Part shown: positions 51,261 to 56,231 of the stretch, piece by piece
Position numbering within the stretch: position 1 is the first letter of the stretch
Layout: every line of letters starts with the position of its first letter
From: an uncultured Roseicyclus sp.
GTDB lineage: Bacteria; Pseudomonadota; Alphaproteobacteria; Rhodobacterales; Rhodobacteraceae
Assembly: GCA_947500415.1 (NCBI GenBank)
Contig: CANMRT010000001.1
Location: 522,982 to 586,981 of the forward strand
Direction of reading: 5' to 3'
Length of the DNA: 64,000 nucleotides
Program-made: the position numbers and the translations under genes
Notes under the pieces: model-generated
What the model was told of the DNA's origin: nothing
Databases searched by the model: none
Seen by the model: the letters and a program-made list of their open reading frames with translations, nothing else

Positions 51261-51467
51261 ATGGCCAACGGCACTGTGAAATGGTTCAACACCACTAAAG
51301 GCTTCGGCTTCATCGCACCGGAAGAAGGCGGCAAGGACGTGTTCGTGCACATCTCTGCTGTCGAGCGTTCCGGCCTGACCGGCCTCGCCGACAACCAGAA
51401 GGTCACCTACGACCTGGAAGCCGGCCGTGATGGCCGCGAGAGCGCGGTTAACCTGACGCTCGTCTAA
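51261..51467 (+). CDS. cspA: Cold-shock protein, CspA family
   Basis: A 68-residue single-domain RNA chaperone. RNP1 is KGFGFI and RNP2 is VFVHIS; the start MANGTVKWFN is the family norm. TAGGAGATACACAG precedes ATG. A terminator follows at 51495, so it is monocistronic. Confidence 0.95.
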   Translation: MANGTVKWFNTTKGFGFIAPEEGGKDVFVHISAVERSGLTGLADNQKVTYDLEAGRDGRESAVNLTLV

Positions 51468-51610: not shown

Positions 51611-51814
51611 TCAGTCTTCCAGAACGAACGTGACCTTCAGGCTGACGCGGTATTCGTCGATTTTGCCGTCCTTGATCGTGACCTTCTGGTCCTGAACCCA
51701 GGCGCCCTGCACGCCTTTCAGCGTCTTGCAGGCACGGTCGATTCCATTTTCGGTGGCATCCTCGAAGCTCTTCTTCGACGACGCGATGATTTCGGTTACG
51801 CGAGCTACGCTCAT
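51611..51814 (-). CDS. Dodecin family flavin-binding protein
   Basis: A 67-residue protein of the dodecin family, which forms hollow dodecamers that store and protect riboflavin or FMN. The pattern VTEIIASSKKSFEDATENGI at the N-terminus and the flavin-stacking Trp39 in VQGAWVQDQ are diagnostic; the C-terminus EYRVSLKVTFVLED is the central beta strand. GGGAGAGAGAT precedes ATG 51814. It converges with cspA. Confidence 0.92.
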   Translation of the reverse strand: MSVARVTEIIASSKKSFEDATENGIDRACKTLKGVQGAWVQDQKVTIKDGKIDEYRVSLKVTFVLED

Positions 51815-52050
51815 ATCTCTCTCCCTCTTGGTCGATTCCCGGAAGGTTCAACCCTCCACAGCCCGTAGCCTAGCACGGTTGCGCCAAAAGCTGCGCACAC
51901 AAGCGGGTCATCGGCTATCTTCTGCCAAGCCTTGGAAAATAAGGCAGGAACACGGGCAAGCTATCGGATATCAGCGCGGCGATATTGTGTGGCGAAGGGC
52001 ACCCGCCACAGGGTTAGTGCATTCGAAACGCAACCCATTGGATCAAAGAA

Positions 52051-52146
52051 ATGAAACGCCCTTCACAGCCTCGCCGCCCCGCAAATCCAATCCCAGGCCG
52101 CCCCGCGCCCGTCCCGTTCAAGTTCACCGATTGGGCCGCGATCTAA
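52051..52146 (+). CDS. Micro-protein 1 of a tandem pair ending FTDWAAI (31 aa)
   Basis: ATG 52051 opens a 31-codon frame with a Pro/Arg-rich basic N-terminus (MKRPSQPRRP...) and the C-terminus PFKFTDWAAI before TAA. A second frame 99 bases further on begins MKRR and ends PFRFTDWAAI. In the common C-terminal codons ACC/ACG, GCC/GCA, GCG/GCA and ATC/ATT differ only synonymously, so the similarity is held at the protein level. No strong Shine-Dalgarno (GGATCAAAGAA). No family recognised. Part of a 608-base region (51815-52422) that otherwise holds no gene. Confidence 0.6.
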   Translation: MKRPSQPRRPANPIPGRPAPVPFKFTDWAAI

Positions 52147-52245
52147 GGTGCGCACACGATTCGACACGTGTGTGTCAATACCGTGTAACACCCAATGACC
52201 TGTTAACCCTTCCGCCATATATTGGAGGGTGAAAGGACCCCTGTC

Positions 52246-52329
52246 ATGAAACGCCGTATTCCAACGCCCCACGCTCAGCGCAAGCCGCGCCCAAACCCCT
52301 TCCGCTTCACGGATTGGGCAGCAATTTAA
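52246..52329 (+). CDS. Micro-protein 2 of a tandem pair ending FTDWAAI (27 aa)
   Basis: ATG 52246 opens a 27-codon frame, MKRRIPTPHAQRKPRPNPF, then RFTDWAAI and TAA. AAAGGA lies about 9 bases upstream and GGAGGG a little further. It is strongly basic and Pro-rich with an amphipathic, aromatic C-terminus, and has the same start and end as the frame at 52051-52146. An inverted repeat CACACG/CGTGTG (52153-52172) lies in the gap between the two. Function unknown; possibilities are a DNA/RNA- or protein-binding peptide. Confidence 0.62.
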   Translation: MKRRIPTPHAQRKPRPNPFRFTDWAAI

Positions 52330-52345
52330 AGAGGTTAGCTGTTCT

Positions 52346-52373
52346 GCGGGGCCGGATTCCGGTCTTTCCCCGC
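52346..52373. other. Hairpin downstream of micro-protein 2
   Basis: GCGGGG (52346-52351) and CCCCGC (52368-52373) form a 6-base stem with an inner CCGG/CCGG pairing. It has no T-run in either direction. It separates the micro-ORF pair from the convergent small membrane gene and may mark their transcript ends. Confidence 0.4.
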
Positions 52374-52422
52374 GAAGCGATGTGCGCCGGTTCCCATATC
52401 TGAACCGACACAAAGCACGTCG

Positions 52423-52608
52423 TCAGAAGCGGAAGGAGATCACCAGCAGCACGACCGAGATCATCGCGGCCCAAAGCGTGAAGATCATCGCCATGCGGCC
52501 GAAAAACAGCCATTCCCGCACATCGTCATCGTCACTGATCCGCTCAATGGACGTGCCTTTGATCATCTTATCCATCTGGGACCGGACTTTTTCTTCCATG
52601 CTGGCCAT
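52423..52608 (-). CDS. Small single-pass membrane protein
   Basis: A 61-residue protein: a charged cytosolic part (MASMEEKVRSQMDKMIKG, then SDDDDVREW) and one C-terminal helix (about 37-58). CAGGAGG precedes the ATG at good spacing. No family recognised. Convergent to the FTDWAAI micro-ORFs. Confidence 0.68.
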   Translation of the reverse strand: MASMEEKVRSQMDKMIKGTSIERISDDDDVREWLFFGRMAMIFTLWAAMISVVLLVISFRF

Positions 52609-52752
52609 GTCATGCCTCCTGAAATCTGCGTTGTTGTAACCATAGCGCGCAGGTCCCCGCTTTCCAGTCGCAGTGCACTATCTTTCGCGTTGCCTGATCC
52701 CCCATCTCCGTTAACTTGAGCCTAACCCACCCGCATAGGAGCCCCCTGAACC

Positions 52753-53292
52753 ATGCGTAAGATCCTTACTTCCTTGGCAGCCCTTGCCACCGCAGCGTCT
52801 TTGACCCCGTCCGCACAGGCGCAGGATGCCGTTGAGATGGAGTTCGTGATGGGGCTGATGGAGTCGATGAACCGGCTGTCGGTGACTTTCAACCGCGAGG
52901 TTTGCGGTTTCATTCTTCAGGATGCCGACGGGAACTATTCCTCGACCAAAGCGTCGTGGGGTGGCGAGGCGAGCTGTGCGTCGATGCCTTTGGAGCCTGG
53001 AATGCGGGCCATCTCTTCGTGGCACACCCATGCGGCTTGGGGCCGTGGTTATGATGGCGAGGTGCCGTCGATCCAGGATGTTGAGGGCGACATGCGGTTC
53101 GGCGTGAATGGCTGGGTCGGCACGCCGGGCGGGCGGCTTTGGTACGTGGATGGAACCACCGGCACGATGAGCCAAGCCTGCGGGCGTGGATGCTTGCCGG
53201 AGGACCCGAATTTCTTCCCCGAAGAGCACGGGCCGGTGGCCGAGGTCTACACGCTCGATGCGCTTTACACGCGGTTTGGGCGCTCACGCTAA
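52753..53292 (+). CDS. Secreted DUF4329 protein with a JAMM-like metal site
   Basis: A 179-residue exported protein (signal 1-23, PSAQAQ). The domain matches DUF4329: VCGFILQDADGNY, SSWHTHAAWGRG, VPSIQDVEGD and NGWVGTPGGRLWYVDG. Glu49, His91, His93, Ser106 and Asp109 reproduce the E...HxH...SxxD order of JAMM/MPN peptidases, with a longer spacing between the last His and Ser than the standard seven. Four later cysteines (CGRGC and others) suggest disulfides. A periplasmic isopeptidase- or peptidoglycan-related activity is possible but not shown. Confidence 0.75.
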   Translation: MRKILTSLAALATAASLTPSAQAQDAVEMEFVMGLMESMNRLSVTFNREVCGFILQDADGNYSSTKASWGGEASCASMPLEPGMRAISSWHTHAAWGRGYDGEVPSIQDVEGDMRFGVNGWVGTPGGRLWYVDGTTGTMSQACGRGCLPEDPNFFPEEHGPVAEVYTLDALYTRFGRSR

Positions 53293-53393: not shown

Positions 53394-56231
53394 CTACTCC
53401 GCTGCGTCCAGATATTCCTCGACTGGCGGGCAGGTGCACACGAGGTTTCGGTCGCCCGCCACATTGTCCACGCGGTTCACTGGCGGCCAATATTTGTCGA
53501 CCCGAAATGCACCCGGCGGGAAGCAACCCTGCTCTCGCGAATAGGCGCGGTCCCAATCCCGGATCAGATCCTCCATCGTGTGCGGTGCGTGGTGGAGCGG
53601 GCTGGCCTCGGCTGCCATATCGCCTGCTTCAACATCCGCAATCTCGGCCCGGATCGCCTGCATCGCGGTGATGAAGCGGTCCAGTTCGGCCATCGTCTCA
53701 GATTCCGTAGGTTCGACCATGAGCGTGCCGGCCACGGGCCAGCTCATCGTGGGCGCGTGGAAGCCGTGGTCCATCAGGCGTTTGGCGATGTCATCTACCG
53801 ACACCCCAACCTCGGCGAATGGGCGGGTGTCAAGGATGCACTCATGGGCCACGCGGCCAGTTTTGCCCTTGAAGAGGATGCCGTAGGCCTCCTCCAGCCG
53901 CTTGGCGATGTAGTTGCCGTTCAGGATTGCAACCTTCGTGGCCTGCGTGATGCCTTCCCCGCCCATCAAGTGCACATAGGCGTAGGAAATCGGCAGGATC
54001 GATGCGGAGCCATAGGGCGCGGCGCTGACCGGGCCTTCCGTTCCGCCACCTTCAGGATGGCCGGGCAAATGCTGCGCCAGATGCGCCTTCACGCCGATCG
54101 GCCCCATGCCGGGGCCTCCGCCGCCGTGGGGGATGCAGAAGGTCTTGTGAAGGTTCAGGTGGCTAACGTCGGAGCCGAGGTCGCCGGGTTTTGAGAGGCC
54201 CACCATCGCATTCAGGTTCGCGCCATCCAGATAGACTTGGCCCCCGAATTCATGGGTGATGTTGCAGACCTCCCGCACCGTTTCCTCGAACACGCCGTGG
54301 GTGGAGGGGTAGGTTATCATACAGGCCGCAAGGTTATCCCCAGCAGCCTCAGCTTTGGCGCGGAAGTCTTCCAGGTCGATGTCACCGTTCTCAGCCGCTT
54401 TCACGACCACAACCTGCATCCCCGCCATCTGGGCGGAGGCCGGGTTGGTGCCGTGGGCGCTGATCGGGATGAGGCAGATATTGCGATGCCCGTTGCCTTG
54501 CGCGCGGTGGTAGGCGGCGATGGTCAGAAGCCCCGCATATTCGCCCTGCGCGCCGGAATTGGGCTGCATCGACATGGCGTCGTAGCCGGTGATTTCGCAC
54601 AGTTTGGCGGAGAGGTCCTCCAGCATCTCGGCATAACCTTCGGCCTGATCGGCGGGCGCGAAGGGATGCAGCGCGCCGAATTCGGGCCAGGTGATTGGCA
54701 TCATCTCCACGGCGGCGTTGAGCTTCATCGTGCAGGACCCAAGCGGGATCATCGCACGGTCGAGCGCCAGATCGCGGTCGGAAAGGCGGCGCATGTAGCG
54801 CATCATCTCGGACTCGGCGCGGTTCATGTGGAAGATGGGATGGGTGAGGTAGTCGGACGTCCGCAGCAGCGCATCCGGGATCGCGGGTGTATCGAGACGT
54901 GGTGCTACGAGCACGCCAAAGGCGCGGCAGACGGCCTCCAAATGCGCGTCGGTTGTGACTTCATCAAGGCTGATACCAATCCGATCGGCGCCCACGTCAC
55001 GCAGGTTGATGCCACGGGCAACGGCGGCGGCCATGATCCGGCTTTGCTTGTCGCCGACATGGATCGTCAGTGTGTCGAAGAACGTGTCGTTCTCGGGCGC
55101 GAAACCCCCGGCCTTGAGGGACGCGGCAAGGCGCGCGGCGCGCAGATGCACCCGTTCGGCAATGGCGCGCAGGCCTTTGGGGCCATGGAACACTGCGTAG
55201 AAGCTGGCCATGACGGCAAGGAGCGCTTGGGCCGTGCAGACGTTTGATGTGGCCTTCTCACGCCGGATATGCTGTTCGCGCGTTTGGAGGGACAGGCGGT
55301 AGGCCTTGTGCCCGTGGCTGTCGATGGAAACGCCTACAATCCGCCCGGGCATGGAGCGCTTGAAGCTGTCCTTGCAGGCCATGAAGGCGGCGTGGGGGCC
55401 GCCATAGCCGAGTGGAACACCGAAACGTTGGGCCGAGCCGACTGCGATGTCAGCATCCATCGCGCCGGGTTCTTTTATAAGAGTGAGCGCGAGAAGATCC
55501 GTGGCCAGGATCGCTGCGGCCTTGTTTTCGTGCAATGCGGCGATGTGCTCAGTTGGGTCTGAAAGCCCGCCATAGGTGCCGGGGTACTGGAAAAGTGCGC
55601 CGAAAACTTGGTCGGGCTCTAGCGTGTCGGGCGCGCCGACGATGACCGAGATGCCAAGCGGGGCCGCACGGGTTTCAATCACGGCGATGGTCTGAGCGTG
55701 GCAGTTTTCGTCGACGAAGAAGCCGTTTGCCTTGGACTTCGCCACGCGCTTGGCCATCACCATGGCCTCCGCCGCGGCGGTTGCTTCATCCAGCAGGGAG
55801 GCATTGGCGACCGGCAGGCCTGTCAGATCCGCCACCATGGTCTGGAAGTTCAGCAAAGCCTCAAGCCGGCCCTGCGCAATTTCGGGCTGGTAGGGGGTGT
55901 AGGCCGTGTACCAAGCGGGGTTTTCCAACACGTTGCGCTGGATCGCGGGCGGGGTGTGCGTATTGTAGTAGCCCTGTCCGATCATCGAGACCATCGGCTT
56001 GTTCTTACCCGCCAACGCACGCATGTGGTCAAGCAGTTCCGCTTCCGAAAGCGCGGGCCAGTTCAGAGGTGTTTCCTGTCGGATCGCGGCAGGCACCGTG
56101 TCGTCAATCAGCGCATCAAGGCTATCGGCCCCCACGGCTTGCAGCATATCGGCCATCTCGTCCGGGGACGGGCCGATATGGCGGCGATTGGCAAAGTCGG
56201 TCGGGTCGTAATCGGTGGTCGTCCAGGGCAT
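53394..56231 (-). CDS. gcvP: Glycine dehydrogenase (decarboxylating), P-protein
   Basis: The PLP enzyme that decarboxylates glycine and loads the aminomethyl group onto GcvH. 945 residues, normal for the fused P-protein. Landmarks are [13 protein letters not shown] near the N-terminus, and in the C-terminal half [16 protein letters not shown] with the PLP lysine. TTGGAGGCCTGA precedes ATG 56231. Third gene of gcvT-gcvH-gcvP, 45 bases after gcvH. Confidence 0.97.

Follow-up and report, generated by a model that had tools for sequence, protein, structure and literature searches.

Two micro-open reading frames (micro-ORFs), arranged in tandem within the 64,000 nt stretch of DNA from an uncultured Roseicyclus sp. 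analysed here (the window), belong to a family of very small proteins that, as judged by sequence comparison, is genuine, under selection, undescribed in the libraries and literature searched, and apparently unnamed. Whereas most known bacterial microproteins are either membrane peptides or very small folded domains, what is conserved in this family lies almost entirely in a heptapeptide at the free C-terminus. The reading favoured here, with rather better than even confidence, is that each product would consist of a disordered tether and a free C-terminal tail, the latter docking in trans on a putative partner.

The two micro-ORFs lie in a 608 nt space (51815-52422) bounded by the dodecin gene on one side and a leftward 61 aa frame on the other (Table 1); mechanically called ORFs of 168 and 116 aa overlap this space, and have no other support. 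An earlier note on this DNA, made from the letters alone, had described the frames, their coordinates, TAA stops and lengths of 31 and 27 aa, the 99 nt from the stop of ORF 1 to the ATG of ORF 2, and the 608 nt space, all of which were found as described; its AAAGGA site for the second frame is likewise present, 8 nt ahead of the ATG. The degenerate pattern of tail plus stop occurs at two places in the window, and at none in 100 dinucleotide shuffles. Treating the tandem pair as the whole family, by contrast, proved too narrow, as a third copy is found beyond the window in the same genome (G000:C2:691494-691592), of the kind linked to a gene for a TfoX C-terminal domain (TfoX_C) protein, and relatives exist in many genera. 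The 61 aa frame, which has a hydrophobic C-terminal part and clusters with frames in seven stretches of the genus, has no match in Pfam above the cut-off. Neighbouring genes such as ndk, Rrf2 and ABC are named below by reading their translations rather than from profile matches; for TfoX_C, one representative was verified against Pfam (PF04994).

Table 1. Features of the micro-ORF locus, in window coordinates.
Feature	Position	Strand	Description
Cold-shock protein (csp)	51261-51467	+	PF00313
Dodecin	51611-51814	-	PF07311
30 nt element	51962-51991	+	TATCGGATATCAGCGCGGCGATATTGTGTG; 59-88 nt upstream of ORF 1; nearly invariant
Micro-ORF 1	52051-52146	+	31 aa, MKRPSQPRRPANPIPGRPAPVPFKFTDWAAI; stop TAA; in this genome only a weak Shine-Dalgarno (GGA)
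FTDWAAI tail and stop of ORF 1	52123-52146	+	tail pattern and pN/pS
Inter-ORF block TGTCAA...GAC	52173-52199	+	genus alignments
Promoter-like site for ORF 2	52195-52223	+	ATGACC, 17 nt, TATATT; consensus match only
Micro-ORF 2	52246-52329	+	27 aa, MKRRIPTPHAQRKPRPNPFRFTDWAAI; stop TAA; Shine-Dalgarno AAAGGA at 52232-52237
FTDWAAI tail and stop of ORF 2	52306-52329	+	tail pattern and pN/pS
61 aa frame	52423-52608	-	ORF; convergent to ORF 2
DUF4329 protein	52753-53292	+	Pfam
gcvP	53394-56231	-	named by reading of its sequence

Frameshifts or stops in close relatives had been named as evidence that would count against the frames; both are intact in all 13 Roseicyclus genomes searched, including that containing the window, and genome G001 has a third tandem copy of the micro-ORF. 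Across the last 13 codons, comparison of the genus genomes gave an in-frame pN/pS of 0.21 for ORF 1 (pS 0.57, pN 0.12) and 0.13 for ORF 2 (pS 0.65, pN 0.09), as against 1.6-2.4 and 1.6-2.6, respectively, in shifted frames. The D, W and following A are identical in all 26 of the genus ORFs, among which TAA, TAG and TGA all serve as stops. Such low in-frame ratios are the mark of selection acting on the predicted peptide, and the earlier argument for this, drawn from synonymous differences between the two tails, is borne out by the predominantly synonymous change within them.

Outside the genus, the pattern (F/Y)(T/S)DWA(A/S)(I/L)-stop was found in 34 of 394 genomes of the bacterial family, with 35 of the 36 places ending in a stop codon and one in TGG, and with no match in the control columns of this search. 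A slightly wider tail pattern was present in 53 of 390 genomes and 24 of 139 genera of the order, with one control match, and DWA(A/S)I-stop in 73 of the 390 genomes and 40 of the 139 genera, with two; all these genome counts are lower bounds, some serine codons or stops being missed. When the exact pattern, which is biased to G+C-rich codons, was applied to the GTDB species collection (84,980 species), rather than within the order as the looser patterns were, 74 stretches were recovered. Record titles place 69 of these in the Rhodobacterales, the other five being Sphingomonadales, Rhodospirillales, 'bacterium' and Alphaproteobacteria MAGs and a strain titled Maritalea. The stretch titled Maritalea mobilis DP3N28-3 (L147) has the micro-ORF, a DUF4329 neighbour and a loose form of the upstream element in common with Rhodobacterales loci, and its species label may be wrong.

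The family is missed by the domain libraries searched, although it is under selection and present in multiple copies within the order, one of whose species, Rhodobacter capsulatus, itself carries a member (L107, in strain DSM 1710). Neither window protein has any Pfam match up to E 10, which separates both from DUF1127, a small-protein family found in Alphaproteobacteria and others. Searches of NCBIfam, PHROGs and PADLOC with the same two proteins returned nothing, a TfoX-linked copy reaching only phrog_36780 at E 0.04. No PDB entry was found by phmmer with one peptide, no viral contig matched the exact tail pattern, and no plasmid was matched by tblastn with one member. Literature searches with the tail sequence returned only unrelated papers, and the family was recognised in none of the titles and opening abstract lines returned for small proteins of Rhodobacter or Roseobacter, or for TfoX in Rhodobacter or Rhodobacteraceae. 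With the same tail in many genera and no match in Pfam, NCBIfam, PHROGs or PADLOC, the original proposal of a candidate new micro-protein family stands.

For a description of its members, 145 non-redundant sequences from all loci were gathered with an expression requiring D-W-A before the last two residues, such that these three residues are fixed by construction and few residues are allowed at the other tail positions. Within the allowed sets, position -7 is F in 134 members, Y in nine and I in two; -6 is T in 125, S in 17 and R in three; -2 is A in 75, S in 67 and another residue in three; and -1 is I in 139 and L in six. Outside the expression, R or K is found at -8 in 109 of the 145 and P at -10 in 84. 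When starts were chosen by the best Shine-Dalgarno score, 143 were ATG and two GTG, the score being at least 3 in 141, and the resulting products would be 25 to 64 residues long. The chain preceding the last nine residues is of low complexity, consisting of 24% Pro, 14% Gln, 10% Ala, 9% Arg, 9% Thr and 8% Lys, while the combined share of V, I, L, M, F, Y and W is about 6%. The basic character that had been ascribed to a Pro/Arg-rich N-terminus is not dependable across the family, as the net charge of this chain ranges from -4 to +10, with a median of +3. AlphaFold2, run with 50 sequences, predicted a coil, interrupted only by a helical stretch of three residues in the tail; the pTM of 0.18 signifies no fold, but the mean pLDDT of 80.6 (59 at the last residue) is not a flag of low confidence, and hence the case for disorder rests on composition. 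Members are thus described here as probably unfolded, sharing little beyond the seven-residue tail.

A view independent of the tail expression was provided by the DNA upstream of 30 TfoX_C genes, of which 28 were used following the exclusion of L200 and L221. A micro-ORF with a D-W-A tail precedes eight of these genes, and versions ending VDLASI, RDLASI, TDFASI or RDFASI precede four more; the position of the W can therefore also be taken by F or L, leaving D-x-A-(A/S)-I as the deeper core. The TfoX_C protein is consequently best regarded as a frequent downstream neighbour that is not required.

The residue following the heptapeptide distinguishes its two common endings. Where the tail ends in Ile, a stop comes next at 29 places in 394 genomes, versus read-through at two in 388 genomes, while for tails ending in Leu the corresponding figures are six and 25. 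The search for read-through covered next codons starting with A, C or G only, in 388 rather than 394 genomes, and its 28 places comprise 25 Leu, one Met and two Ile. By reading, many of the Leu cases resemble one flavodoxin-type family and the two Ile cases resemble non-coding frames; no larger protein with the Ile tail was recognised among the read-through places in the 388 genomes. The sequence data thus show the tail of the predicted products to be a free C-terminus.

Members are found in several genomic contexts, the most frequent of which places a TfoX_C gene closely downstream: three counting methods gave 39 of 138 members, 47 of 145 members and, by tblastn, 54 of 125 stretches. The 47 members linked by the start search, in which a TfoX_C-type start lies 13-93 nt after the micro-ORF stop, have a median length of 40 aa, are Gln-rich and have S at -2 in 38 cases, whereas the other 98 have a median of 32 aa, are Pro/Arg-rich and have A at -2 in 66. 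The sequence GGAGCAG, which exceeds a plain ribosome-binding site, occurs in the 20 nt before the ATG in 12 of these 47 linked members and two of the 98 others. Within 2 kb, a csp gene is present in 11 of 13 stretches of the genus and in 21 of 58 unlinked stretches from elsewhere, but in none of 54 TfoX_C-linked ones; these are raw counts irrespective of shared ancestry, and some of the stretches are only about 3 kb long. As gcvP or DUF4329 is nearby in six of those 58 other stretches, the csp-gcvP locus is common to other genera too. In seven stretches, some titled Roseovarius, the micro-ORF is followed after 65-123 nt by a same-strand L,D-transpeptidase-like gene (PF03734 just below cut-off for one partial protein), and 40 of the 138 members have some other co-directional conserved frame downstream. 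The one recurrent regulator recognised by reading beside members is Rrf2-like, in 12 stretches.

According to the favoured reading, each product would be an unfolded, low-complexity chain in which function resides in the free tail alone, typically P-x-P-(F/V/Y)-R-(F/Y)-(T/S)-D-W-A-(A/S)-I-COOH. This tail would probably be extended and close in one helical turn, with the Phe, Asp, Trp and terminal Ile with its carboxylate docking into the pocket of a putative partner that is conserved across the order, while the N-terminus would serve as a soluble tether only. Copies at different loci, here those of the csp-gcvP and TfoX_C-ndk kinds and elsewhere that of the L,D-transpeptidase, might then supply the same ligand under different conditions. 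This docking account is consistent with the contrast between tail pN/pS in frame (0.13-0.21) and shifted (1.6-2.6), with the preference of the Ile tail for a following stop (29 places against two), with the low complexity and variable charge of the N-terminus, and with members that face a convergent downstream gene or are kept where TfoX_C is gone. Set against it are the closeness of TfoX_C downstream by all three counts, which a leader acting in cis predicts equally, the patchy spread of the family (53 or 73 of 390 order genomes by the strict patterns), neighbours that point to no single pathway, the fixing of D-W-A by construction in the 145 members, and a pLDDT that is no mark of disorder. 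Three roles had been suggested previously: a docking or degradation tag, or binding to the ribosome or membrane. Of these, we infer that a docking tail fits best, while binding to the ribosome or membrane through a basic N-terminus is weakened because that part is of low complexity and variable charge. The tail is short enough to be synthesised, and so the putative partner can be fished for directly. A broader proposal, which we judge less likely than not, is that these genes make up an order-wide intracellular ligand-receptor system, in which several micro-genes per genome, at different loci, would encode interchangeable disordered carriers of a single free C-terminal ligand, (F/Y)(T/S)DWA(A/S)I, for one dedicated putative Rhodobacterales receptor.

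Alternatively, the micro-ORFs could encode leader peptides, with the ribosome pausing or terminating at the tail and thereby controlling the next gene in cis, for instance by opening a hairpin over the TfoX_C start. The tail does directly abut the stop codon, and the same-strand gene that such a leader needs is present for the TfoX_C-linked members, where the start 13-93 nt past the stop in 47 of 145 is often accompanied by a predicted hairpin near the ribosome-binding site (a feature scored with no shuffle baseline), as well as for members with the L,D-transpeptidase-like gene and the 40 of 138 with another co-directional frame. However, it is absent for ORF 2 of the window, which faces the convergent 61 aa frame, and heuristic gene calling gives a convergent gene as the nearest conserved downstream frame for 27 of 138 members. 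Seven of these 27 are ORF 1 of the genus, with ORF 2 in between, and L123, L171 and L191 have a co-directional frame in between, so the cases that remain are ORF 2 of seven genus stretches and ten members outside the genus (L043, L072, L078, L083, L103, L125, L126, L134, L136 and L166). Furthermore, in L078, L300 and L301 a convergent ndk lies 79-237 nt after the micro-ORF, with no TfoX_C within 1500 nt downstream and a terminator-like hairpin after the micro-ORF; the whole genome containing L301 (G063) has no PF04994 match at E 0.001. In L166, only a 19-residue TfoX_C-like remnant is left between the micro-ORF and the convergent ndk, as if TfoX_C were decaying while the micro-ORF stays. As the micro-ORF persists beside ndk in these four loci, TfoX_C as an obligate partner was rejected as the sole explanation. 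Retention of the micro-ORF at places without a downstream gene to control is more simply explained by action in trans; a cis leader is accordingly judged unlikely. CutF is reportedly a small exported protein whose translation controls other genes. The micro-ORFs differ from this type of nascent-chain regulator of Rhodobacter (PMC9973294) in having no signal-like N-terminus and, in some copies, no co-directional downstream gene.

Terminator-like hairpins were found after two of 47 linked and four of 92 unlinked micro-ORFs, where shuffles predict 1.6 and 2.8; given this lack of enrichment, an intrinsic terminator as a general feature of micro-ORFs was rejected, and none was found within 51815-52760 of the window. 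The hairpins following the TfoX_C-linked micro-ORFs of L124 and L092 would fit attenuation there, at a total that is at chance level.

Destruction of the peptide or of bound cargo provides another possible role, in which the tail would be a degron read by a protease such as ClpXP and the product an unstable regulator. The hydrophobic -A-A-I at the free C-terminus would allow recognition of that end. We nevertheless give this little credence, since conservation extends back to the F, T, D and W, beyond what we infer a short C-degron to need, and a protein consisting of little but a degron would have no evident use.

Similarly improbable, in our estimation, is mimicry of SDHAF4, whereby the resemblance of the tail to GPEPVR(Y/F)GDWE would reflect binding to SdhA or a relative as a competitor or modulator. 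Up to E 10, the family profile retrieved a single PDB sequence, 2k5k, which by reading belongs to DUF1674 (PF07896) and was aligned at GPEPVRFGDW, but with an hmmsearch E-value of 1.4 that is not significant in a database search. Profile-profile comparison (hhalign) with the SDHAF4-like proteins of ten of these genomes gave a probability of 85% (pairwise E 5.9e-6) over 13 columns for the G-P-E-P-x-R-(Y/F)-G-D-W core, a comparison picked only after the hit had been seen. A PF07896 protein with the GPEPVR(Y/F)GDW segment is present in 10 of 10 genomes tested, the copy in the genome of the window ending GPEPVRYGDWERKGIAVDF. The two groups resemble each other in P-x-P-V-R-(F/Y)-x-D-W, but they are separate genes: the micro-ORF chains end in A-(A/S)-I, A-A-I in both window proteins, and lack the ERKGIAVDF end of SDHAF4 with its C-terminal Asp-Phe, for which a published study (PMC10784507) describes strict conservation and binding at the active site of SDHA. 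In addition, a Glu between two prolines is uncommon in the micro-ORFs, and the relatives with VDLASI, RDLASI, TDFASI or RDFASI tails have no PxPVRF part. In the same study (PMC10784507), SDHAF4 is a short protein with a conserved C-terminal part that becomes ordered upon its partner; the present family may work likewise, as a flexible chain ordering its C-terminus on a partner, while not being a member of that family.

That the locus is instead a small RNA or DNA-level element which chances to hold open frames is very improbable: conserved non-coding blocks do flank the frames, but codon-level selection, the free use of three stop codons and the ribosome-binding sites all oppose it, and no Rfam family matched 51815-52480 up to E 5. 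The first of these blocks, the 30 nt element, has a single occurrence in each of the 13 genus genomes when up to three mismatches are allowed, always upstream of ORF 1, and is likely to be a cis-regulatory element; a looser TATCG-N13-CGATA form lies upstream of the L147 member. Its role as a regulon site was rejected within the genus, there being a single copy per genome. The block between the ORFs is possibly an operator or hairpin for ORF 2. Its distance to a downstream -10-like TA..T and Shine-Dalgarno sequence varies little in the genus, which suggests that ORF 2 may have its own promoter; shuffles yield 0.6 promoter-like sites on average. The inter-ORF hairpin is weak or absent in several genus genomes, that of the window among them. 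A PpsR-like TGT-N12-ACA spacing in this block, noticed by inspection, was dropped on being kept in only part of the genus.

Least credible is that the C-terminal heptapeptide is a pheromone released from a precursor and sensed, since, despite the variable N-terminus, constant heptapeptide, tandem copies and a tail we take to be akin to ComS-type DWW peptides, the N-terminus has no hydrophobic, signal-like character, no recurrent receptor-type regulator was recognised beside members, and the tail hardly varies between species.

Two further observations concern sequences around these genes. Palindromes with differing arms, such as GTCAG-TGAAAC-CTGAC and GTCCGG-AATC-CCGGAC, lie upstream of stand-alone micro-ORFs in several genera; these were noted by eye, among the matches listed, in L083, L088, L043 and L072 and in the Roseicyclus inter-ORF block, and represent a possible shared operator or hairpin. 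Elsewhere in the window, two adjacent glycine riboswitch aptamers (RF00504; 57832-58013, minus strand) form a tandem riboswitch, on the same strand as the leftward gcvP region.
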